From an uncultured Bacillota bacterium (GTDB lineage Bacteria > Bacillota > Dethiobacteria > DTU022 > UBA8154): a stretch of 64,000 nucleotides of DNA. The notes beneath the pieces were generated by a model. It had not been told where the DNA came from, ran no database searches, and saw only the letters and a program-made list of their open reading frames with translations. Every line of letters begins with the position of its first letter. The stretch's first letter is position 1. Below, in pieces: positions 42,527-56,871 of this stretch. The DNA lies in assembly GCA_937973635.1 (NCBI GenBank), contig CALJJZ010000017.1, positions 1 through 64,000 on the forward strand. The letters run 5' to 3'. The position numbers and the translations under genes were made by a program.

Positions 42527-43306
42527 ATGCAAGAAGGAAAGGGCACAAAATCTCTGGCCGTTGCCCTAGGCCTGCTGGATTATTTTACAGAGGAGCGGCT
42601 GCAGCTCGGCCTCTCCGCCCTGGCCAGGCTGTCCGGACTCCCCAAAGCCAATGTCTTCAGGCACCTCCTTGCCCTGGAGGAGAAGGGTTACATCAAGCAG
42701 GACGCGGCGACCAAGAAATACCAGCTCGGTTTTAAGCCCCTGGAGCTGGCCTACCTTGTGAACAAGCAATTCAGTTTGAGGGACGTCGTGCTCCCGTACA
42801 TGAAAAGACTCAAAGAAGAAACAAACGAGACGGTATGCCTGCAGGTGGAGGACAGTGGCCGGGGGATCTGCATTGAGCGCCTCGAGTCCAACAACAGGCT
42901 CCTTTACCTGCCGCCCCTGGGCAGCCGGGAATACCTTCATGCGGGGGCCTCCCGCAAGGTGCTGCTGGCTTTCCTGCCGGAAGAGCGCATCGCGGAGATC
43001 ATCGACGCCGGTTTGCCTGCGGTCACGGCGAAAACGGTAACGGATCCGGAGCAGCTGCGCCGCGATCTTAAGCTCATCCGGGAAAAAGGCTATGCCGTCA
43101 CGGAGGAAGAACATGTGGAGGGGGTGAGTGCCATCTCCGCCCCTGTGCGGGGCAGGGACGGCAAAGTGGTGGCCAGCCTCTCCATCGTGGGGCCGGCCTT
43201 CCGTTTTAACCGCGAAAAGAAAGAAAAGTACCTGGAAAAGCTGCTGCAAACGGTAAGGGAAATTTCCAGGGAACTCGGTTATCTGCCCGCTGAGCAAAGG
43301 AACTAA
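42527..43306 (+). CDS. IclR family transcriptional regulator of the nicotinate cluster
   Basis: 259 residues. N-terminal winged helix with LSALARLSGLPKANVFRHLL (about residues 25-45), then an effector domain with ASRKVLLAFLPEERIAEII and GVSAISAPVRGRDGKVVASL. It is the first gene of the plus-strand set encoding nicotinate dehydrogenase, reductase, enamidase and transporter, so it likely responds to nicotinate or a pathway intermediate (inference). ATG 42527 is preceded by GAGGGG. It is a paralogue, not a copy, of the IclR at 4.8-5.6 kb. Confidence 0.9.
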   Translation: MQEGKGTKSLAVALGLLDYFTEERLQLGLSALARLSGLPKANVFRHLLALEEKGYIKQDAATKKYQLGFKPLELAYLVNKQFSLRDVVLPYMKRLKEETNETVCLQVEDSGRGICIERLESNNRLLYLPPLGSREYLHAGASRKVLLAFLPEERIAEIIDAGLPAVTAKTVTDPEQLRRDLKLIREKGYAVTEEEHVEGVSAISAPVRGRDGKVVASLSIVGPAFRFNREKKEKYLEKLLQTVREISRELGYLPAEQRN

Positions 43307-43356
43307 AATTTACATTTTAATTATTTTGTGTGGAAAGAAAGGGGAAGAAGCAGAAG

Positions 43357-44841
43357 ATGCCATTATTACCGGAAGTCAAAAAGTATTACGGCAAACAGAA
43401 ACTTTTCATTGACGGCCAGTGGGTGGAGTCGGCCTCTACGGTAGTGCAGGAGAACACCAACCCTGCCACGGACGAGGTCATCTCCCATTTTCCCGCCGCC
43501 ACGGCGGCGGAAGCCCGCGCTGCGGTGGAAGCGGCGGCCAGGGCTTTTGTTACCTGGCAGGATGTGCCCATGCGGGAAAGGGCGCGCATGCTCTTTGATA
43601 TGCGTGCCAAGTTTGAAGAGCATTTTGACGAGCTGTGCCGCGTCCTCACCCAGGATCATGGCAGGACCATCGGCGAGTCTGAAGGTTCGGTGCGCCGCGT
43701 GATTGAAAATATCGAATCAGCCTGTTCGGCTATCTACGGCCTGGCCAAGCAGAATGAACATATGATGCAGCTGGCCAAGGGCATTGACCAGTACCTCACC
43801 TGGGAACCCCTTGGCCCCTTTTTAATTATCACCCCCGGCAATATCCCCATGCACGCCTGGTCCTCCTTTGTCCCCTATGCCCTGGCTGCAGGCTGTACAG
43901 TAGTGGTAAGCCCGAGCCGGCAGGACCCGGTGGCTGCAGAATATATTTGCAGGGCGGCCCAGGAAACGGGTTTCCCCCCCGGTGTGATCAATATGGTGCA
44001 CGGGGGCAGGGAGATCAACAAAGAGATCCTCTCCCAGCCCGAAATTAAAGGAGTGGGCTTTATTGGTTCCAACCGGGCCGGCCACGAGCTTTTCGAGCTC
44101 TGCGGCAGGCTGCGCAAGACTTCTTCCATTAACGGTAACGGCAAGAACCACGTGGTAGTCATGCCCGATGCCAACCTGAAAGAAGGGGTGCAGTGGCTGC
44201 TTAGGGCCTGCTTCGGCATGGGCGGGCAGCGCTGCCTGGGCGTGGATAACGTAGTCATTATTGGTGACATCTATAAAGAATTTAAACAAAAATTCAAGGA
44301 AGCGGCGGCGGCCATGAAACTTGGTTACGGCCTGGATACGGAGACAGAGCTGGGCCCCATGACCACCCGCGCCGGTATAGAGAGCGTGGAAAAATGGATC
44401 GAGCTTTCCCTCTCCGAAGGGGCGAAGCTGGTCCTGGACGGGCGCCGGCCCAAAGTGGAGGGCTATCCCAGGGGCTATTTCCTGGCCCCCACCATCCTGG
44501 AAGACGTGCATGTGGACATGGAGAGCGCCAAGCAGGAGGCCTTTGGCCCTGTAGCAGCCTTGATCCGGGGCGAGAGCCTGGAGCAGGCCATCGAGTGGAT
44601 CAATACCAAGACCTACCTGGGCCACTCTGCCTGCATTCTTACCAGCAGCGGCGTGGCGGCGCGCAAATTCATCAGGGAGGTCAACGTGGGCAACGTAGGT
44701 GTAAATGTGGGGGTGGCCCAGCCCTACGCTTTCTTCCCCCTGGGGTCTCGCCGGGATTCCTTTGTGGGGTCGGCCAAGTCCAGGATGGCCTCCATGCGCC
44801 TCTTTATGGACGAAAAGACGGTCTGTGCGCGTTGGGTCTAG
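43357..44841 (+). CDS. Aldehyde dehydrogenase, methylmalonate-semialdehyde dehydrogenase-like (CoA-acylating)
   Basis: About 494 residues, NAD-dependent aldehyde dehydrogenase fold. The catalytic Cys is in FGMGGQRCLGVDN (Cys293). The general-base Glu of hydrolytic family members is replaced: the site reads SINGNGKNHVVVMPDAN, the pattern of methylmalonate-semialdehyde dehydrogenase (MMSDH), which releases an acyl-CoA with loss of CO2. The two Arg that hold the substrate carboxylate in MMSDH have counterparts in GSVRRVIEN and GQRC. The adjacent enamidase makes 2-formylglutarate, a substituted malonate semialdehyde, so glutaryl-CoA is the expected product (inference). ATG 43357 follows AAAGGGG; GTG 43330 has no ribosome site. 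The next gene starts five bases after its stop. Confidence 0.88.
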   Translation: MPLLPEVKKYYGKQKLFIDGQWVESASTVVQENTNPATDEVISHFPAATAAEARAAVEAAARAFVTWQDVPMRERARMLFDMRAKFEEHFDELCRVLTQDHGRTIGESEGSVRRVIENIESACSAIYGLAKQNEHMMQLAKGIDQYLTWEPLGPFLIITPGNIPMHAWSSFVPYALAAGCTVVVSPSRQDPVAAEYICRAAQETGFPPGVINMVHGGREINKEILSQPEIKGVGFIGSNRAGHELFELCGRLRKTSSINGNGKNHVVVMPDANLKEGVQWLLRACFGMGGQRCLGVDNVVIIGDIYKEFKQKFKEAAAAMKLGYGLDTETELGPMTTRAGIESVEKWIELSLSEGAKLVLDGRRPKVEGYPRGYFLAPTILEDVHVDMESAKQEAFGPVAALIRGESLEQAIEWINTKTYLGHSACILTSSGVAARKFIREVNVGNVGVNVGVAQPYAFFPLGSRRDSFVGSAKSRMASMRLFMDEKTVCARWV

Positions 44842-44845
44842 CAGC

Positions 44846-45460
44846 ATGAGAAGGGAAGAGGTGGATGCATTGGTGGAAAAACCTGAAGTGCGTAAAATTT
44901 ATACCATTATGGAGGAGACCTACAGTGACGGCGCGGCCAGGCTTAAGAAGCCTGTGCGTAAAGCGGCGGCTGCTGTGGTCTTCAAGAACCCTTTTGTGGA
45001 TAGGTTCCAGGAAAACCTGGAGCTGCTCTACGCCTGGAGCGAAGAGCTAGGGGAGCTCCTTACTAAAAAAGCGGTGACAGCTCTAGACATTGCCCCGGCA
45101 GATGTCCATAGCTACGGTAAGGCAGCCATGGTGGGCGAAAGGGGAGAGCTGGAGCATTGCGCCGCTGTGCTGCACCCCGCCCTGGGCAAGCCCATACGTG
45201 ACCATGTAGGCGGCGGAAAGGCGATTATCCCCTCGACCAAAAAGCTGGGCTACCCCGGCGCGGCCATAGATGTGCCTCTCCATTATAAGGATGCGGCCTT
45301 TGTGCGCAGCCATTTCGACGCCATGGAGGTACGCCTGCCCGACGCCCCCAGGGCCGATGAACTTGTGCTTATCGTCGTTGTCACGGACGCAGGCCGGCCC
45401 TTCCCCAGGATCGGCGGCCTCAGCCTTGAGGAAGTCAAAGGAGAGGACGGGCTGCGCTAG
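44846..45460 (+). CDS. AA_synth (DUF1185) family protein of unknown function
   Basis: 204 residues; family PF06684, called 'amino acid synthesis' without an established reaction. Characteristic segments are FKNPFVDRFQENLELLYAWS, SYGKAAMVGERGELEHCAAV and DHVGGGKAIIPSTKKLGYPG. ATG 44846 lies five bases after the aldehyde dehydrogenase stop with no separate ribosome site, suggesting coupling. In my knowledge the family occurs in catabolic clusters with amidohydrolases, which fits this place between the aldehyde dehydrogenase and enamidase genes. Its role here could be ring-opening, isomerisation or disposal of a reactive intermediate; none is shown. Confidence 0.8.
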   Translation: MRREEVDALVEKPEVRKIYTIMEETYSDGAARLKKPVRKAAAAVVFKNPFVDRFQENLELLYAWSEELGELLTKKAVTALDIAPADVHSYGKAAMVGERGELEHCAAVLHPALGKPIRDHVGGGKAIIPSTKKLGYPGAAIDVPLHYKDAAFVRSHFDAMEVRLPDAPRADELVLIVVVTDAGRPFPRIGGLSLEEVKGEDGLR

Positions 45461-45517: not shown

Positions 45518-46681
45518 ATGGGCGTCAGCGCTCTGGTAAATATTGGTACAATTGTCAGCGGCGATATTCATGAACCTCTCTGCCGTGGCAATACGCTTAT
45601 TGTGGTGGACGGTAAGATCGCCGCCGTGGGAGGAGAAGAGCTGTTAAAGGAGTACGGGCCGACACAGGTATTTGATGTGCACGGCGCCACCGTTACGCCG
45701 GGCCTCATCGATTCCCATGTCCATCCTGTGCTGGGTGATTTTACGCCGCGGCAGAAAACGCTGGATTACCTGGACAGCTCCCTGCATGGAGGCGTTACTA
45801 CTATGATCTCCGCTGGTGAGCCCCACACGCCGGGCCGTCCCAGGGATCCTGCCGGGACTAAAGCCCTCGCCATCCTGGCCCATAAATCTTTTAAAAACTT
45901 CCGCCCGGGAGGCATGAAGATCCACGGCGGTGCCGTGATCCTGGAGAAGGGCCTTACGGAGAAGGACTTTGCCGAAATGGCGGCCGAAGGGGTCTGGCTT
46001 GTGGGCGAGGTTGGGCTGGGCAGCGTGAAGACGCCGCAGGAGGCGGTGCCTATGGTGGCCTGGGCTAAAAAATACGGCATGAAGGTCGCCGTCCATAGCG
46101 GCGGCACCTCCATCCCCGGCAGTTCGGCCATGACCGCCGCAATGGTAATGTCCATCGGACCTACGGTGGTTTCCCACACCAACGGTGGTCCCACGGCCCT
46201 GGCCCCTGCCGAAATTGACGCCCTCATTGAACAGACCTCCCTGCCCCTGGAGATTGTGCAGTGCGGCAATCTCAAGGCGGCAGACTATATTGCCCGGCGG
46301 CTGCAGGAAAGAAACCAGCTCGACCGGATTATTATCGGCAATGACTCTCCTTCGGGCAGCGGCATTATCCCTCTGGGCATCCTGCGCACCATTACCCAGC
46401 TGGCTGCCCTCTCCGGTATTGAGCCGGCCCGGGCCGTGGCCATGGCCACGGGCAACACGGCGGCCGTTTACGGGCTGCCTACTTCGTTGATTGCCCCGGG
46501 GCGGGAAGCGGACCTGGTGGTTATGGATGCGCCCATCGGCTCAGTGGGCCAAGACGCCCTGGGGGCTATGGCCGCCGGCGACCTCCCCGGCATTGCCATG
46601 GTGATGATCGACGGAGAGGTAAGGGTATGGGTAAGCAGGAACACGCCGCCACCGGTACGTCAGGTAAAAGTTAGCACATAA
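45518..46681 (+). CDS. ena: Enamidase (6-oxo-1,4,5,6-tetrahydronicotinate amidohydrolase)
   Basis: 387-residue metal-dependent amidohydrolase. In Eubacterium barkeri enamidase, a Fe-Zn enzyme, hydrolyses 1,4,5,6-tetrahydro-6-oxonicotinate to ammonia and (S)-2-formylglutarate. The sequence parallels that enzyme along its length: DSHVHP with His67 and His69, LHGGVTTMISAG, KIHGGAVILEKGLTE, GEVGLG with Glu164, HSGGTSIPGSS with His193, SHTNGGPTA with His220 and IGNDSPSG with Asp276, all expected metal or active-site positions. GGGAGG precedes ATG 45518. The next gene, 6-hydroxynicotinate reductase, makes its substrate and starts ten bases after its stop. Confidence 0.93.
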   Translation: MGVSALVNIGTIVSGDIHEPLCRGNTLIVVDGKIAAVGGEELLKEYGPTQVFDVHGATVTPGLIDSHVHPVLGDFTPRQKTLDYLDSSLHGGVTTMISAGEPHTPGRPRDPAGTKALAILAHKSFKNFRPGGMKIHGGAVILEKGLTEKDFAEMAAEGVWLVGEVGLGSVKTPQEAVPMVAWAKKYGMKVAVHSGGTSIPGSSAMTAAMVMSIGPTVVSHTNGGPTALAPAEIDALIEQTSLPLEIVQCGNLKAADYIARRLQERNQLDRIIIGNDSPSGSGIIPLGILRTITQLAALSGIEPARAVAMATGNTAAVYGLPTSLIAPGREADLVVMDAPIGSVGQDALGAMAAGDLPGIAMVMIDGEVRVWVSRNTPPPVRQVKVST

Positions 46682-46691
46682 GGTGATGGTC

Positions 46692-48221
46692 ATGGTTGTT
46701 ATAGAAAGGGAAAAATGTACGGGATGCGGCCGGTGCGCCAGGGATTGCCCCGTTGCCGCCATCGAAGTTAAAGCAAAAAAGGCTGTGGCAGCAGAGCACT
46801 GCGTACATTGCGGCGTCTGCCTGCGTGTCTGCCCGGAGGCGGCCCTTGCTCTTCCCGCCGCCATCCAGACGGAGGCCCTTACCTGTACCGCCTGCCCGGT
46901 ACGGTGTGCCATCCTGCCGGGCTATTTTGGCGCCTGCCGCCGCTACCTCAACCGGGGAGGAGAGCTGGTGCGGGAGCGGGAGCTGGTCTTTGACCTGCCG
47001 GAAAGCAGACCCCGGGAAAAGGCCATCGAACGCCCCCTGCTCACGGGGGTGGGCGCAGGCACTGCTTATCCCTGCTGCCGCCCCGCTCCCTATATCGTGC
47101 AGGACATGGTGGACGGCGTGGAGGTGGTGACGGTGGTGACGGAAGCCCCTCTGAGCTACAGCGGCGTCAAGCTCAAGATCGATACCAATTTCTTCATCGG
47201 GGTAGAAGGGGCCGTGGTGCGGCGCCGCGGCCGCGTCGTGGGCAGAGTAGAGACGGAGGAATACGGTTCCAAGATGCTCAGCATCGGCGGGGCCAACCTG
47301 CTCACGGGCAAAGACGGTTTTCTGGCAGCCCGCACCATCGTAGAGATCTGTAACGGAGAGAAAGTAACCCTTAAAGTTGAAGGGGGAGCGACCCTGGAGC
47401 TGCAGGTGGGCAAAAAGCCTGTGATTAACGGTATTGAAGACCAGAAGATGCGCGTTGGTTGCGGCAGCGCTACAGTGGGCATGTTTGCCGCGGCCCTCGC
47501 TCGGGTGGTGGACGAAGCCATTGTGCTGGACCACCACGTAGTGGGTCTCTTATCGGAACATTTTGCCGGGGAGTACGTGGGCCTGAAGTGGAGCGGCGTA
47601 GTCCCCAACGCCCGCAGGAGCACGCGGGGCCGCTATTTTGGCGCACACGGCACGGGCTGGGGCGGGACAAATATCCACGATCCCCGGGCGGCCATCCTGG
47701 AGATTAAGCGGGAGCTGGCCTGGCCGGGGATGAAAATCCTAGTTACGGAGACCACGGGGCAGCAGGCCGCCCTCTTTGTCCTCGACGATGCCTTGGAGCC
47801 GGTGGCAGCAGAGCTGACTCCGGAGATAAAAGAAGTGGTCGCCCTCATTTCTGCTTCCTGCCAGGAGGCCAGGGTTTCCGCCGTCTATACCGGCGGTACG
47901 GGGGGAAGCGCCCGGGCCGGGGTTACCCGGTACCCCCTCAGGCTTACAGAAGCGGTCCATGCAGGGGAGGCTACCCTGACCATTGGAGGCGCGCCCACTT
48001 TTATCTTGCCCGGGGGAGGAATTAATTTCCTTGTAGACGTGGAGAAGGTAGTCCCCAGGGCTTTTACTTGGGTGCCGACCCCTGCTACTGTGGCACCCGT
48101 GGAATATACCATGACCAGGGAGAAATACCGGGAGATGGGCGGCCATCTGGAGCAGATTGTCGATCTCTCCCGTTTAAAAAAAGAAAAGAGAAAGCAAGCA
48201 AAAGAAGCGGGAAAAAGGTGA
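46692..48221 (+). CDS. hnr: 6-Hydroxynicotinate reductase
   Basis: 509 residues. Reduces 6-hydroxynicotinate to 1,4,5,6-tetrahydro-6-oxonicotinate using reduced ferredoxin; the E. barkeri enzyme has one [2Fe-2S], two [4Fe-4S] clusters and a covalent flavin. Here the N-terminus holds a two-cluster ferredoxin domain (CTGCGRCARDCP and CVHCGVCLRVCP), then extra Cys in CTACPVRC and FGACRRY suited to the [2Fe-2S] cluster, then a long catalytic region containing TEAPLSYSGVKLKIDTNFFI. A GCGSATVG motif near Thr261 resembles sites flavinylated by ApbE. ATG 46692 is six bases after AAGGTG; GTG 46683 lies inside that site. It is coupled to ena. Confidence 0.9.
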   Translation: MVVIEREKCTGCGRCARDCPVAAIEVKAKKAVAAEHCVHCGVCLRVCPEAALALPAAIQTEALTCTACPVRCAILPGYFGACRRYLNRGGELVRERELVFDLPESRPREKAIERPLLTGVGAGTAYPCCRPAPYIVQDMVDGVEVVTVVTEAPLSYSGVKLKIDTNFFIGVEGAVVRRRGRVVGRVETEEYGSKMLSIGGANLLTGKDGFLAARTIVEICNGEKVTLKVEGGATLELQVGKKPVINGIEDQKMRVGCGSATVGMFAAALARVVDEAIVLDHHVVGLLSEHFAGEYVGLKWSGVVPNARRSTRGRYFGAHGTGWGGTNIHDPRAAILEIKRELAWPGMKILVTETTGQQAALFVLDDALEPVAAELTPEIKEVVALISASCQEARVSAVYTGGTGGSARAGVTRYPLRLTEAVHAGEATLTIGGAPTFILPGGGINFLVDVEKVVPRAFTWVPTPATVAPVEYTMTREKYREMGGHLEQIVDLSRLKKEKRKQAKEAGKR

Positions 48222-48228
48222 AAAGAAA

Positions 48229-49125
48229 ATGCTGCAAAAACTAGGCCCGGGCAGGTTTTACCTGGATTACGGGCCGGTGCAGATGGCTGTTTCCGCCTTT
48301 GCCGGCCGCCGGCCCCTTGAGGAAGCGCTCCAAAAGGTTGAAGTATATGTACAGGGCCTTCTGCAGGAGCTGACAGACTGCCTTGCCCTGGCCAGACAGC
48401 TGCCGCGAGAAATGTCTTTATCACCATCACCCCCTGTGCTGGAGAGCCTGCCGCCGGTCCTGCAGGAGATGATCGGCGCCGTAAGCTTAAGCGGCGACCC
48501 TGACCTGACCCCCATGGCGGCAGTGGCCGGTGCTTTTGCCGACTCTGTGGCCGATTTCCTGGTGGAGCAGGGTGCCACCAGGGTGATCGTAAACAACGGG
48601 GGAGATATTGCCCTCAGGCTGGAGGCGGGGGAAGAGCCCGTTGTTGTGGGGCTTAAACCGGACCTGGCACAGGGGGGCTGCAGCCACACCTTTCAGCTTA
48701 GGGCAGAAAGCGGCCTGCAGGGTATTGCCACCAGCGGGCTGGGCGGCAGGGGCTTTACCCTGGGCATAGCCTCAGCTGTAACCGTGGTGGCGGGAAAAGC
48801 CAGCGTGGCTGATGCTTGTGCCACCTCCCTGGCCAACAGCACCAACTTGGATCACCCCGCCATCGTCAGGCTGCCGGCGGAAAAGCTGGATCCCCGGACA
48901 GACATCAGGGGGCAGCTGGTAACAGTGCGCGTTGCCGGCCTTGAGCCCCGGGCGTACCGGCAGGCCCTGCAGGCCGGTATCGGAGCTGCCCGGCAGCTTT
49001 TGGAGAGGGGAGTTATCGGCGGTGTAGCCATCTGCGCCGGCCCATACATCTCCGTGCTGCCTTCCTCCTTTGCAGCTCAGTTCTGCTGCAGGGAGAGCAG
49101 CCTGCCGGGAGCTGTGCCGGGATAA
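48229..49125 (+). CDS. UPF0280 family protein (ApbE superfamily), candidate flavin transferase
   Basis: 298 residues of the UPF0280 family (COG2122), which belongs to the ApbE superfamily. ApbE enzymes attach FMN covalently to Thr or Ser. ApbE-like elements are visible: AAVAGAFADSVADFLVEQGA, VNNGGDIALRL near residue 125, IATSGLGGRGFTLG and SVADACATSLANST near residue 188, matching the ApbE metal-binding DA-x-AT region. It starts seven bases after hnr and follows it in the operon. Because the reductase carries a covalent flavin in E. barkeri, this may be its dedicated transferase (inference). AAAAGGTG precedes ATG 48229. Confidence 0.88.
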   Translation: MLQKLGPGRFYLDYGPVQMAVSAFAGRRPLEEALQKVEVYVQGLLQELTDCLALARQLPREMSLSPSPPVLESLPPVLQEMIGAVSLSGDPDLTPMAAVAGAFADSVADFLVEQGATRVIVNNGGDIALRLEAGEEPVVVGLKPDLAQGGCSHTFQLRAESGLQGIATSGLGGRGFTLGIASAVTVVAGKASVADACATSLANSTNLDHPAIVRLPAEKLDPRTDIRGQLVTVRVAGLEPRAYRQALQAGIGAARQLLERGVIGGVAICAGPYISVLPSSFAAQFCCRESSLPGAVPG

Positions 49126-49158: not shown

Positions 49159-50415
49159 TTGTCCCCAGATCATGCCATTGGTAAATCCCTGCCGCGGCTG
49201 GAGGGCTGGGAAAAAGTTACGGGCCAGTGCCGCTTTACCGACGACCTCAGTATGCCTGGGATGCTCTATGCCGGGGTGCTGCGCAGCACTGTGCCTCACG
49301 CTGAGCTGCTGGCCCTGGAGACGGAGGCAGCGTGCCGGCTGCCGGGGGTGGTGGCGGTGCTGACGGCCCGTGATGTGCCTGGCCATAATGCCGTAGGGAT
49401 TATCGTCCGTGATGAGCCAGTCCTTGTGGAAGATAAGATCAGGCGCGTCGGCGATCCCCTTGCCCTTGTGGCAGCGGAGAGCAAGAAAGCTGTGGCCGAG
49501 GCTCTGGCTGCCATAAAGGTATCTTTGCGCGAGCTGCCTGCTGTTTTTTCCCCGCGGGAAGCTATGGCCCCGGGAGCCCCCCTTTTAAGGGGCAAGACCA
49601 ATCTCTTGCTGCACCGTAAAATTCGCAAAGGGAATGTGGAGGAAGCCCTGGCCCGGGCGCACGTGGTGGTGGAAAACACCTATACGACCCCTTTTGTGGA
49701 GCACGCTGCCCTGGAACCAGAGGCCAGCCTTGCCTTGAGGGAAGGAAACAGCATTACGGTCTGGACCTCTACCCAGAACCCCCATTTCGACAGAGGAGAG
49801 ATAGCCTCTGTCCTGGGGCTGGAGCAGAATAGGGTCAGGGTAGTCCAGCAGGCTACGGGCGGCGGTTTTGGCGGCAAGCTGGATATCTCCACCCAGTGCC
49901 ATGCAGCCCTGTTGGCCTGGCATACGGGTCGTCCCGTCAAGCTCGTTTACAGCCGGGAAGAGTCTTTTATCGCTTCGGGGAAACGGCACCCTTATACAAT
50001 TAAATACCTTAGCGCCGCTAATCGGGAAGGGAAGCTGCTGGGGATTAAAGTAGAGATCCTGGCTGATACAGGCGCCTATGCCTCCTATGGGCCGGGGGTG
50101 CTTACCAGGGCCGCTGTCCATGCCACAGGACCATACTATGTTCCCCATGTGCATGTCGATGCCTACGCCGTTTATACAAACAACCCCTACTGCGGCGCCA
50201 TGCGCGGCTTTGGTGTGCCCCAAGTCGGCTTTGCCCACGAGATCCAGATGGATATACTGGCAGAGAAATTGGGCCTTGATGCCTGGGAGATCCGCAGCAA
50301 GAATTTCTTGCAGCCTGGCATGGAGACGGCCACGAACCAGCTTCTTAGACAAAGCGTGGGCATTGGGGAAACACTGCGCCGGGTCAAGGCAGAGGTAACG
50401 GAAACTGCTATTTAA
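49159..50415 (+). CDS. ndhL: Nicotinate dehydrogenase large molybdopterin subunit
   Basis: 418 residues covering the N-terminal half of a xanthine-dehydrogenase-type molybdenum subunit. It has the a/b hammerhead domain at the start (GKSLPRLEGWEKVTGQCRFT) and molybdopterin motifs QATGGGFGGKLDIS near residue 237 and GAMRGFGVPQVGFAHE near residue 350. It ends at VGIGETLRRVK, where a one-piece enzyme would continue. In E. barkeri the same cofactor subunit is uniquely divided into NdhL and NdhM. Nicotinate dehydrogenase hydroxylates nicotinate at C6, passing electrons to NADP via FeS and FAD subunits. TTG 49159 is preceded by AAAGGAGGAG. The NdhM part follows after 124 bases. Confidence 0.92.
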   Translation: MSPDHAIGKSLPRLEGWEKVTGQCRFTDDLSMPGMLYAGVLRSTVPHAELLALETEAACRLPGVVAVLTARDVPGHNAVGIIVRDEPVLVEDKIRRVGDPLALVAAESKKAVAEALAAIKVSLRELPAVFSPREAMAPGAPLLRGKTNLLLHRKIRKGNVEEALARAHVVVENTYTTPFVEHAALEPEASLALREGNSITVWTSTQNPHFDRGEIASVLGLEQNRVRVVQQATGGGFGGKLDISTQCHAALLAWHTGRPVKLVYSREESFIASGKRHPYTIKYLSAANREGKLLGIKVEILADTGAYASYGPGVLTRAAVHATGPYYVPHVHVDAYAVYTNNPYCGAMRGFGVPQVGFAHEIQMDILAEKLGLDAWEIRSKNFLQPGMETATNQLLRQSVGIGETLRRVKAEVTETAI

Positions 50416-50539: not shown

Positions 50540-51550
50540 GTGAAAAAAAGAGGCTGGGGCCTGGGCTGCATGTGGTATGGTATTGGCAATACGGGGCTGG
50601 CCAATCCCTCCGGCGCATTTATCGACCTGCTCAACGACGGGACGGTCATCCTGCTGACGGGCTGCGCCGATATAGGGCAGGGTTCCAGCACGGTGCTGGC
50701 CCAGATAGCTGCCGAAGTGCTAGGGGTGGAGCCCGGGAAGGTGCGGGTTATTGCCGGCGATACGGGGGTGACGCCGGAAGGGGGCGCCACTTCGGCCAGC
50801 AGGCAAACATATATTTCGGGCATGGCCGTCAAGGCGGCAGCGCAGCAGGCGCAGCAGCCGCTCCTAAGAAAAGCGGCGCAGCTCCTCGGCGTCCCTAAGG
50901 AGGAGCTGGTGTGCCGGGATTATAAAATATTCCCTTTTTTTGACCCGCAGCGCAGCGTGCCCTTACAGGAGATGATCAGGCAATGCCGCCGTGCCGGCGA
51001 GATGACGCTGGGACACGGTTGGTTCAATCCGTTTACCACCGGCCTGGATGAAGAGACTGGTAGGGGCAGCCCCTACGCCACCTATGCCTATGCCACCCAG
51101 TGGGCGGAGGTGGAGGTGGATACAGAGACGGGGGAAGTAACGGTCTTAAGGTTAATAGCTGCCCATGATGTGGGGAAGGCCATCAACCCTATGGCAGTAG
51201 AGGGCCAGATTGAAGGCGGCTGTGCCATGGGCCTAGGCTATGCTTTAATGGAAGAACTTATTGTAGAGGATGGTGTTATCCTCAATGCGGGCTTTGCCCA
51301 TTACCTTATTCCTACTATGGAAGACCTGCCGGAGATAAGGGCGATTATTGTAGAAGAAGCAGAGGAGACAGGACCTTTCGGCGCAAAAGGTGTGGGGGAA
51401 CCGCCCCTTATACCTACGGCGCCGGCTATTATTAACGCCGTAAGTAACGCCCTGGGGGTGCGCTTCTTTTCTCTACCCCTTACCCCAGAGAAGATCCTGG
51501 CGGCCCTGGCAAAAAAAGAAGGGCAGCAGGGAAGGAGGGAGGCAACTTAA
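50540..51550 (+). CDS. ndhM: Nicotinate dehydrogenase medium molybdopterin subunit
   Basis: 336 residues covering the C-terminal half of the molybdenum subunit. It starts KKRGWGLGCMWYGIGNTG and has GCADIGQGSSTVLAQIAAEV near residue 42, GDTGVTPEGGATSASRQTYI near residue 73 and, near the end, GPFGAKGVGEPPLIPTAPAI with the active-site Glu of the family. GTG 50540 has AAGGAGG nine bases upstream. The 124-base gap from ndhL is AT-rich with short A/T palindromes and no other signal. With NdhL it should form the complete Mo site, probably with labile selenium as in E. barkeri (inference). Confidence 0.92.
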   Translation: MKKRGWGLGCMWYGIGNTGLANPSGAFIDLLNDGTVILLTGCADIGQGSSTVLAQIAAEVLGVEPGKVRVIAGDTGVTPEGGATSASRQTYISGMAVKAAAQQAQQPLLRKAAQLLGVPKEELVCRDYKIFPFFDPQRSVPLQEMIRQCRRAGEMTLGHGWFNPFTTGLDEETGRGSPYATYAYATQWAEVEVDTETGEVTVLRLIAAHDVGKAINPMAVEGQIEGGCAMGLGYALMEELIVEDGVILNAGFAHYLIPTMEDLPEIRAIIVEEAEETGPFGAKGVGEPPLIPTAPAIINAVSNALGVRFFSLPLTPEKILAALAKKEGQQGRREAT

Positions 51551-54716: not shown

Positions 54717-55601
54717 ATGTACAGGGCCTACTACAGACCGAAAAGTGTGGCGGAAGCCCTGGCGTTGCTGCAGGAAGGGGGAGGACGAGCCAGGGTCCTG
54801 GCCGGGGGCACCGACCTGATGCTGCAGTTAAAAAAAGGGGAGCTCTCCTGCGATGCAGTTGTGGATATCAGCGGGGTTAAAGACTTGCGTTATATCAGGG
54901 AGGAAGGGGGACGGCTTTATATTGGGGCCCTCAGTACCCATACAGATCTGGCTGAGTCTGCTCTTTTGGAAAAAGAAGCTCCCCTGCTGGCCGCGGCGGC
55001 CAGAAGCGTGGGTTCCCTGCAGATCCGCAATGTGGGAACAGTGGGGGGTAATGTGGTAAACGCCCAGCCGGCGGCTGATACGGCCGTCCCCCTTATGGCC
55101 CTCAAGGCCGTGGCCACAATTGTCTCTCCCGCCGGGGTAAGGCAGGTTTTTCTGGATGACCTCTACCGTCCGGAGGGAGGGGTAAAGCTCGATCCCACTT
55201 GTGAGCTATTAACGGAGTTTTCCTTTGTTTCACCCCGGGCGGCAGGAGCGGGCGCCGCTTTTGGCCGGGTGGCCCGGCGCAGGGCCCTGGCCCTGCCTGT
55301 TTTCAATACAGCCGTGCTGCTTGTGCCCGGCGCAGGCCGTGCCTTCCTGACAGAAGCCCGCATTGTCATGGGTCCGGTGGCCCGTTTGCCTTTGCGGGCC
55401 AGGCAGGGGGAGAGGGTATTGCTGGAGCAGGGGGCCGGCGAGGAGATTTTTCTGCAGGCGGCGGCAGCCGCCTCTTTGGAAGCTGCACCCCGGGACAGCG
55501 TTTTCCGCGGTAGTGCCCGCTACCGTAAAAAACTGGCCCGGGTAATAGTTTACCGCACCCTGCTGCAGGCCTGGGAAAACGCTTGTTCCCGCGTGGATTA
55601 A
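54717..55601 (+). CDS. ndhF: Nicotinate dehydrogenase FAD subunit
   Basis: 294 residues of the CoxM/XdhB FAD-binding family. FAD-contact motifs are VLAGGTDLMLQLKKGEL near residue 27 and SLQIRNVGTVGGNVVNAQPA near residue 100; the C-terminal CO-dehydrogenase-flavoprotein domain follows. It passes electrons from the FeS subunit to NAD(P). ATG 54717 directly follows the DctM stop codon. The NdhF and NdhS genes are separated from ndhLM by the transporter genes and from each other by an unknown gene. Confidence 0.92.
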   Translation: MYRAYYRPKSVAEALALLQEGGGRARVLAGGTDLMLQLKKGELSCDAVVDISGVKDLRYIREEGGRLYIGALSTHTDLAESALLEKEAPLLAAAARSVGSLQIRNVGTVGGNVVNAQPAADTAVPLMALKAVATIVSPAGVRQVFLDDLYRPEGGVKLDPTCELLTEFSFVSPRAAGAGAAFGRVARRRALALPVFNTAVLLVPGAGRAFLTEARIVMGPVARLPLRARQGERVLLEQGAGEEIFLQAAAAASLEAAPRDSVFRGSARYRKKLARVIVYRTLLQAWENACSRVD

Positions 55602-55693
55602 ACTTGAGTCCCCCGGGGCCGGGAGCCATTTCCCCATTCCGGCGGCGGATGCTGGAACTGCCATAAACTTTTTAAGAAAAAGGTGAAAATATT

Positions 55694-56368
55694 TTGGAGG
55701 GTAAACTAAAGAGCGTTACAGGCAGGCAGGCCCTGCCGAAGAGGGCCTGCCGCCCGTTCCTGGCCCTGGTGTTATGCTTGTTATGCGTGGCGGTCTCCCT
55801 GGCGCTGCTGCAGCCTGCAGCCCTGGCCTGCAGCGGTTGTGCCTTTAACTATCCCTGGCTGCACAGCTTCCCTACCGACGAGGAGCTGGCCCAGGCTACG
55901 GCGGAATTTTTCCGGGAATATGCCACCAGGCAGGCAGGAAGCGGCGCAGCGTTTGGCTGGACCGATTACTGGCATCTCAGGCTGGAAAGGCCGGGGGTCG
56001 AAGAACAGTATAAGATCGTCGAAGTGATCCTCTGTTTTAAAGAGGAACCGGCCGCCGGCAGCGCTACAGGGAGCGCAAGCTACCATTTTACTACCCTGGC
56101 TTTTGACCGAGAGAAGGGCTATTTTTTCTGGCCCCACAGTATGGGCTCCTTCGACGACAGGGGAAAATTGGAAGCCTATCTGGATGAGTATGTGATCAAC
56201 AGGCTTGCGGCTACAGAGGTGAGGGAAGCCGGCAAACCGGCCGCTGCAGCGCCGCCGCGGCAGACCCCGGGGAACGAGCTGCTCCTCGTGCTTCTGGCTG
56301 TTGTCCTGGGGGTCCTGTTGCTGACTTCCAGGGCGAGGCATAAAGCCGGCCAGGGTCAGGGCAGATAA
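55694..56368 (+). CDS. Secreted membrane-anchored protein of unknown function
   Basis: 224 residues, not recognised. A basic start and hydrophobic segment (about residues 24-44) end at LACSGCAFN, which could be a signal cleavage site or the start of a CxxC pair. The middle region is soluble (TDYWHLRLERPGVEEQYKIV, FDREKGYFFWPHSMGSFDDR). A linker rich in Ala and Pro leads to a C-terminal membrane helix (LLLVLLAVVLGVLLL) and basic tail. TTG 55694 has AAAGGTG upstream. It stands between ndhF and ndhS in the same direction, so it is presumably expressed with the dehydrogenase. Nothing in the sequence assigns a function. Confidence 0.7.
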   Translation: MEGKLKSVTGRQALPKRACRPFLALVLCLLCVAVSLALLQPAALACSGCAFNYPWLHSFPTDEELAQATAEFFREYATRQAGSGAAFGWTDYWHLRLERPGVEEQYKIVEVILCFKEEPAAGSATGSASYHFTTLAFDREKGYFFWPHSMGSFDDRGKLEAYLDEYVINRLAATEVREAGKPAAAAPPRQTPGNELLLVLLAVVLGVLLLTSRARHKAGQGQGR

Positions 56369-56397
56369 CGGCGATTTTGAGGAGGGGTGCCTCAGTG

Positions 56398-56871
56398 ATG
56401 AAGAAACAGCTGACTTTTGTGTTAAACGGCAAAAAAATCTCTGTAGAGGCGGAAGCCGACACCCTTTTGCTCGACTTGCTGCGGGAAACCCTGGGCCTCA
56501 CAGGGACCAAACGCGGCTGTGGCGAAGGTGAATGCGGGGCCTGCACGGTACTCGTCAATGGAGAGACCGTCAATTCCTGCATTTATCCTGCCTGGAAAGC
56601 GGAGCACAGCGAGCTGCTTACGGTAGAAGGGCTGGGTGACAGGGAAAACCCCCATCCCCTGCAGGAAGCTTTCCTGGAGCAGGGGGCGGTGCAGTGCGGC
56701 TTCTGCACGCCGGGCATGCTTGTCTCCGCCTACGGGCTGCTGCAAAAGACGCCGACTCCCGGCACGGAGGAGATTAAGAGCGCCCTGGCGGGCAATCTCT
56801 GCCGCTGCACCGGGTATAAAAAGATTATCGCAGCTGTCAAGGCGGCCTCCTTAAAGATCTCCCAGCCCTAG
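56398..56871 (+). CDS. ndhS: Nicotinate dehydrogenase small [2Fe-2S] subunit
   Basis: 157 residues of the CoxS/XdhC-type two-cluster FeS family. The plant-type ferredoxin site is KRGCGEGECGACTVLVNGE with a fourth Cys in VNSCIYP; the second, all-helical cluster uses CGFCTPGM and CRCTGYKK. It carries electrons from the molybdenum site to FAD. ATG 56398 is ten bases after GAGGAGGGG; TTG 56377 is an unlikely earlier start. It is the last gene of the nicotinate operon, convergent with the cysteine desulfurase gene. Confidence 0.93.
   Translation: MKKQLTFVLNGKKISVEAEADTLLLDLLRETLGLTGTKRGCGEGECGACTVLVNGETVNSCIYPAWKAEHSELLTVEGLGDRENPHPLQEAFLEQGAVQCGFCTPGMLVSAYGLLQKTPTPGTEEIKSALAGNLCRCTGYKKIIAAVKAASLKISQP

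Follow-up and report, generated by a model that had tools for sequence, protein, structure and literature searches.

The 6-hydroxynicotinate reductase (Hnr) of Eubacterium barkeri reportedly carries a covalently bound flavin. The canonical flavin transferases of the ApbE/FmnB/Ftp family (PF02424) provide one model for such an attachment, and the ApbE target motif is D-x-x-[S/T]-G-A-[S/T] (PMC12052999). In Klebsiella pneumoniae, a cytoplasmic ApbE is combined with a soluble fumarate reductase; this resembles the pair discussed here in having a cytosolic transferase and a soluble reductase, and differs from it in that a canonical ApbE acts on a canonical motif (PMC12052999). UPF0280 (COG2122) is known from another pathway. 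In Desulfovibrio, genetics has shown that homocysteine synthesis needs COG2122, along with DUF39 and a NIL/ferredoxin protein, and a part for COG2122 in persulfide modification has been suggested (PMC5764234). The term sulfur-trafficking proteins has been applied to relatives of UPF0280 (PMC5764234, PMC12068725), and the homology between COG2122 and ApbE seems not to extend into the flavin-binding region (PMC5764234). The label of a family of unknown function, which an earlier note on this locus had used, is therefore to be corrected. None of the papers in the literature searched connects UPF0280 with Hnr.

The hnr-UPF0280 locus and its gene cluster

We analysed a stretch of 64,000 nucleotides from an uncultured Bacillota bacterium, here called the window. 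The following genes are considered.

42527-43306, + strand: IclR-family regulator (profile match)
43330-44841, + strand: aldehyde dehydrogenase, matched best over its full length by methylmalonate-semialdehyde dehydrogenase (TIGR01722) with a score under the cut-off
44846-45460, + strand: PF06684 (AA_synth) protein, adjoining ena
45518-46681, + strand: enamidase (ena), matched to 2vun with E=3.3e-160; a pathway gene that confirms the context
46692-48221, + strand: 6-hydroxynicotinate reductase (hnr), 509 aa from ATG 46692; GTG 46683 is also open
48229-49125, + strand: UPF0280 gene, 298 aa, ATG start; candidate for a cytosolic enzyme that flavinylates or otherwise matures Hnr
49159-50415, + strand: molybdenum hydroxylase large fragment, NdhL-like (profile match)
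50540-51550, + strand: presumably the second molybdenum hydroxylase fragment, NdhM-like (open reading frame and family knowledge)
54717-56871, + strand: what we take, from family knowledge, to be the hydroxylase FAD subunit (54717-55601) and 2Fe-2S subunit (56377-56871), NdhF/NdhS-like

This cluster, which also holds a TRAP transporter and in which the molybdenum hydroxylase is split, is by its sequence an anaerobic nicotinate cluster for vitamin B3 breakdown. The family alignment places the start of Hnr at ATG 46692, so that the Thr261 numbering of the earlier note is right; counted from GTG 46683, the same residue is Thr264. Hnr contains 12 invariant cysteines, corresponding to three putative [4Fe-4S] clusters, and then the body of the protein. 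The predicted model has a mean pLDDT of 93.5 over the whole protein. For the body (47000-48190), the fold search returned no convincing PDB match, and the ferredoxin part alone matches. A glycine-cleavage T-protein-like piece is faintly visible in the body, and 7 of 59 relatives give a faint match to GCV_T_C.

The best comparison is provided by genome G438, whose Hnr is 54.8% identical to the window protein over 502 aa. The Hgd of G438 (L214/L216) is identical in 218 of 218 residues to 3cky, which we take to be the E. barkeri 2-(hydroxymethyl)glutarate dehydrogenase (Hgd), and G438 is thus either E. barkeri itself or a strain very close to it. Given this Hnr identity and the adjacent enamidase, the gene upstream of UPF0280 is, judged by sequence, a genuine hnr. 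The gene order in G438 is hnr-UPF0280-hgd-ndhF-ndhS-ndhL-ndhM, with ena further along. Hence, the organism of the reported covalent flavin has a UPF0280 gene in the same cluster. Enamidase, molybdenum hydroxylase and a UPF0280 gene directly downstream of hnr are common to both clusters. A PF06684-like gene adjoins ena in G438 too (L216:1900-2496). The two clusters differ in that hgd follows UPF0280 in G438, while no hgd is seen in the window cluster, where the methylmalonate-semialdehyde-dehydrogenase-like gene is present beside ena. Since 2-formylglutarate is a 2-substituted malonate semialdehyde, it is conceivable that this aldehyde dehydrogenase could convert it directly to glutaryl-CoA, with decarboxylation and CoA acylation, in place of the route used by E. 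barkeri.

The UPF0280 gene lies 7 nt past hnr, as the earlier note had stated. The hnr TGA ends at 48221 and the spacer reads AAAGAAA; a Shine-Dalgarno-like AAGGTGA ahead of the UPF0280 ATG overlaps the hnr stop. The family assignment given there is likewise confirmed, both by the UPF0280/PRK04334 models and by the solved family member 2o34. NF003322 matches residues 3-270, which is most of the length, with E=1.3e-66, at a score that, like those of all but one match in a scan of 399 genomes, does not reach the equivalog cut-off of 290 bits. By sequence, 2o34 is matched with E=6e-9. It is also the top Foldseek match (E=3e-11, probability 1.00) of the predicted model, which has a mean pLDDT of 95. 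The fold begins at once at the N-terminus, with no lipoprotein signal.

Co-occurrence of UPF0280 and hnr

The earlier note proposed a dedicated pair of UPF0280 and Hnr. This is supported by the distribution of the two genes, which occur together genome-wide almost without exception, E. barkeri included. Among 399 genomes of the phylum, Hnr was found in 15. UPF0280 matches in these 399 genomes fall into two non-overlapping score classes, one of 190-325 bits and one of up to 92 bits. The high-scoring class comprises 16 matches, which are confined to exactly the 15 hnr genomes (Fisher p=1.7e-27, a nominal value as the genomes are related). In the family of Acetobacterium bakii, hnr is present in 5 of 40 genomes, G438 among them, and UPF0280 is directly downstream in all five.

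The same picture is obtained for 80 further named hnr loci from Bacillota, Desulfobacterota, Actinomycetota, Spirochaetota and other groups, some of which belong to genomes that were also reached in the other samples, so that the sets are not fully independent. UPF0280 is found within the locus DNA in 71 of the 80, directly after hnr in 62 and within about 4 kb in 9. For seven of the remaining nine, UPF0280 is encoded elsewhere in the genome. The hnr copy lies near a contig end in three of them (L025, L036, L085), is followed by other cluster genes in two (L027 and L029, the latter with UPF0280 on the same contig just past the stretch examined) and is non-adjacent to UPF0280 in two Actinomycetota (L100, L101). 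The two genomes without UPF0280 (L040, L069) are MAGs whose hnr contigs are 3.7 and 3.1 kb long. The pairing of UPF0280 with hnr is far beyond chance. Mirror-tree analysis was dropped as evidence for the pairing: Hnr-UPF0280 distances correlate with r=0.76, no higher than Hnr-enamidase distances (r=0.79), and co-evolution beyond the shared cluster is thus not supported.

Six loci (L068, L069, L070, L071, L076, L103) encode an Hnr-like subfamily with GCGGACC or GCGGANI in place of GCGSAT. Where neighbours could be read, these reductases are found near a molybdenum hydroxylase, some of them near dihydropyrimidinase-like or OYE-like genes, and UPF0280 is close by in all except L069. They may reduce other N-heterocycles.

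UPF0280 as candidate flavin transferase and its possible target site

The earlier note had also placed UPF0280 in the ApbE superfamily. Profile comparison, fold and residue mapping agree with this, and most catalytic residues are kept. Against PF02424, the window protein scores 24.6 bits with a cut-off of 25.6, and close relatives in G318, G047 and G438 score above it (31.3, 28.7 and 30.8 bits). PF02424 is matched at E<=0.01 by 53 of 63 aligned Hnr-linked UPF0280 proteins. With hhalign, the Hnr-linked proteins align to ApbE over residues 97-209 with E=6.4e-10. In the fold search, 2o34 is followed by 39 ApbE/FmnB/Ftp chains with E from 6.5e-6 to 7.2e-4 and TM of about 0.43-0.59.

The active-site residues of FmnB (PMC8906456) map, by alignment and predicted model, to A100, N122, T168/S169, R174, D195 and T199 of the window protein, all of which are kept in the UPF0280 protein of G438. 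The conserved positions of the Hnr-linked proteins are A100-G101, N122/N123-GGD126, T168-S169, R174, D195-x3-T199 and D225, the last of which is invariant solely in this class. D195, S169, T199 and R174, which correspond to the Mg2+/diphosphate set of FmnB (Asp301, Ser257, Thr305 and Arg262), are each found in 63 of 63 proteins. UPF0280 thus shares with ApbE/FmnB/Ftp the fold and the A, N, T-S, R, D and T at matching positions. It differs in that the segment with the general-base histidine (V. cholerae His257, FmnB His273) is absent, with no equivalent His in the alignment, in that the lipoprotein signal is missing, and in that its partner lacks the target motif.

From sequence and predicted structure, we consider UPF0280 the best candidate flavin transferase for Hnr, a reading that we hold to be reasonably probable, because 12 of the 36 hnr genomes examined encode no canonical ApbE and the ApbE of the window organism is apparently exported. 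A dedicated, soluble and cytosolic member of the ApbE superfamily would then mature Hnr. It would most likely bind FAD, or another flavin diphosphate, with Mg2+ and transfer FMN to a Ser or Thr of the ferredoxin-dependent Hnr as a phosphoester, leaving AMP. Like ApbE/FmnB/Ftp, it would thereby transfer FMN to a partner encoded nearby. The missing histidine could be replaced by the target residue or by the invariant Asp225, although a role of Asp225 is a guess. UPF0280 may turn out to be a transferase of the ApbE type that needs no histidine base and recognises a different target motif.

The following codons of hnr are relevant for the attachment site.

47154-47156, + strand: Ser155 (TEAPLSYSG), invariant; alternative attachment candidate by conservation only
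47457-47480, + strand: GCGSATVG (Gly256-Gly263), the target proposed earlier; Cys257 is invariant, Ser259 and Thr261 are not
48108-48110, + strand: Thr473 (APVEYT), the other invariant Ser/Thr

The earlier note regarded GCGSATVG around Thr261 as resembling an ApbE target site. The sequence is present and correctly numbered, but it does not fit D-x-x-[S/T]-G-A-[S/T], a motif found in 0 of 109 reductases. Thr261 itself was rejected as the flavin site on conservation. Of 111 distinct reductases, 100 have Thr at this position, six Cys, two Ala and one each Ser, Asn and Val. Most of the 11 reductases with a replacement have UPF0280 nearby, and in three it is intact and directly downstream (Ala in L015, Cys in L103, Asn in L071). 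Thr261 is not universal and is thus not the site if the modification is family-wide. In L015, hnr lies beside both enamidase and UPF0280, which makes it a counter-example even if true Hnr alone is modified. Ser259 is replaced by Gly in seven reductases. Thr261 is therefore unlikely to be the attachment site. Only two Ser/Thr residues, Ser155 and Thr473, are invariant in 111 of 111 reductases, and Cys257 is invariant in the same set.

The DUF39-linked class and alternative functions

UPF0280/COG2122 is widespread in anaerobes and methanogens. All 133 genomes with DUF39 (PF01837) in the 399-genome sample also have UPF0280. Among genomes lacking both DUF39 and hnr, only 6 of 257 have a UPF0280 match, and in four of these the gene is broken or short. 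The UPF0280 genes of such genomes are mostly broken (L201, L203, L204). The window organism carries both kinds, as a second UPF0280 gene is found beside NIL/ferredoxin and DUF39 on contig C47 (L004, G000:C47). The homocysteine-synthesis trio of DUF39, NIL/ferredoxin and UPF0280 is present at L023 and L004 of the same genome.

The COG2122 proteins of homocysteine synthesis (MA1715, DvMF_0044; solved relative 2o34) belong to the same family as the Hnr-linked proteins (hhalign E=2.5e-26) and are likewise associated with a metabolic partner and a ferredoxin domain. They differ in the partner, DUF39 with NIL/ferredoxin, in the lack of R174 and D225, and in their position in the tree. The DUF39-linked proteins form one clade with 100/100 support and a branch of 3.1; the Hnr-linked proteins make up the rest of the tree, and a clade of their own is not supported.

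This second class suggests the strongest alternative to the transferase reading. By analogy with the role proposed for MA1715/COG2122, UPF0280 could be a sulfur/persulfide handling or Fe-S assembly factor for Hnr, with the flavin attached in another way. Besides the need for COG2122 in homocysteine synthesis, the suggested persulfide modification and the presence of UPF0280 in every DUF39 genome, the 12 cluster cysteines and invariant Cys257 of Hnr are in line with such a role, as is the link of both Hnr and DUF39 to a 2[4Fe-4S] ferredoxin domain. We nevertheless consider it rather unlikely. The ApbE arginine at position 174 is kept in 63 of 63 Hnr-linked proteins and 12 of 13 ApbE proteins, in contrast to 0 of 46 DUF39-linked proteins, which have Pro or His. 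The Hnr-linked class is also nearer to ApbE by profile distance (6e-10 versus 4e-6 for the DUF39-linked class), and it contains no invariant Cys, a residue that a sulfur carrier usually needs.

A broader reading, which we regard as quite improbable, would have all UPF0280 proteins load flavin, in the cytosol, onto reductive enzymes driven by ferredoxin, with one set acting on Hnr and the other on the DUF39 homocysteine synthase, at a new target site. If true, the DUF39 synthase would itself be a covalent flavoprotein, which would explain one-electron ferredoxin reduction at the thioaldehyde step. The Ser155 region of Hnr, TEAPLSYSG, is weakly similar to TGTFGPMCSSG of DUF39, a likeness not significant alone. 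Homology between Hnr and DUF39, which would unify both partners, was rejected: the profile match covers 26 residues with P=0.05-0.08, and 1 of 20 shuffled controls scored higher. A sequence search of the PDB gave no DUF39 structure at E<=1.

Alternatively, the flavin could become attached autocatalytically, with Cys257 or another nucleophile as a possible partner in an 8-alpha or C6 bond, and UPF0280 would be otherwise engaged or act as an accessory chaperone. Flavinylation of both types is self-catalytic in other covalent flavoproteins (PMC12052999), and Cys257 is available in all 111 reductases. We find this doubtful to a still greater degree, as it leaves the near-obligatory UPF0280 partner and its conserved Mg2+/diphosphate site unexplained.

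Flavinylation of Hnr by a canonical ApbE encoded elsewhere, with UPF0280 merely assisting, is highly improbable: of two sets of 15 and 21 hnr genomes, 10 and 14 have ApbE (PF02424), G438 included, but it is missing from 5 and 7, respectively, among them the single-contig G238 and G391 and Acididesulfobacillus acetoxydans, which led us to reject it as the sole Hnr transferase; its target motif is in no reductase; and 7 of 13 ApbE proteins examined, including that of the window organism, carry a lipobox-like signal, so that their activity would lie outside the cytosol. For the candidate transferase reading, Hnr is a second, independent UPF0280 partner, reportedly with a covalent flavin, and the COG2122 question becomes a simple two-protein test.
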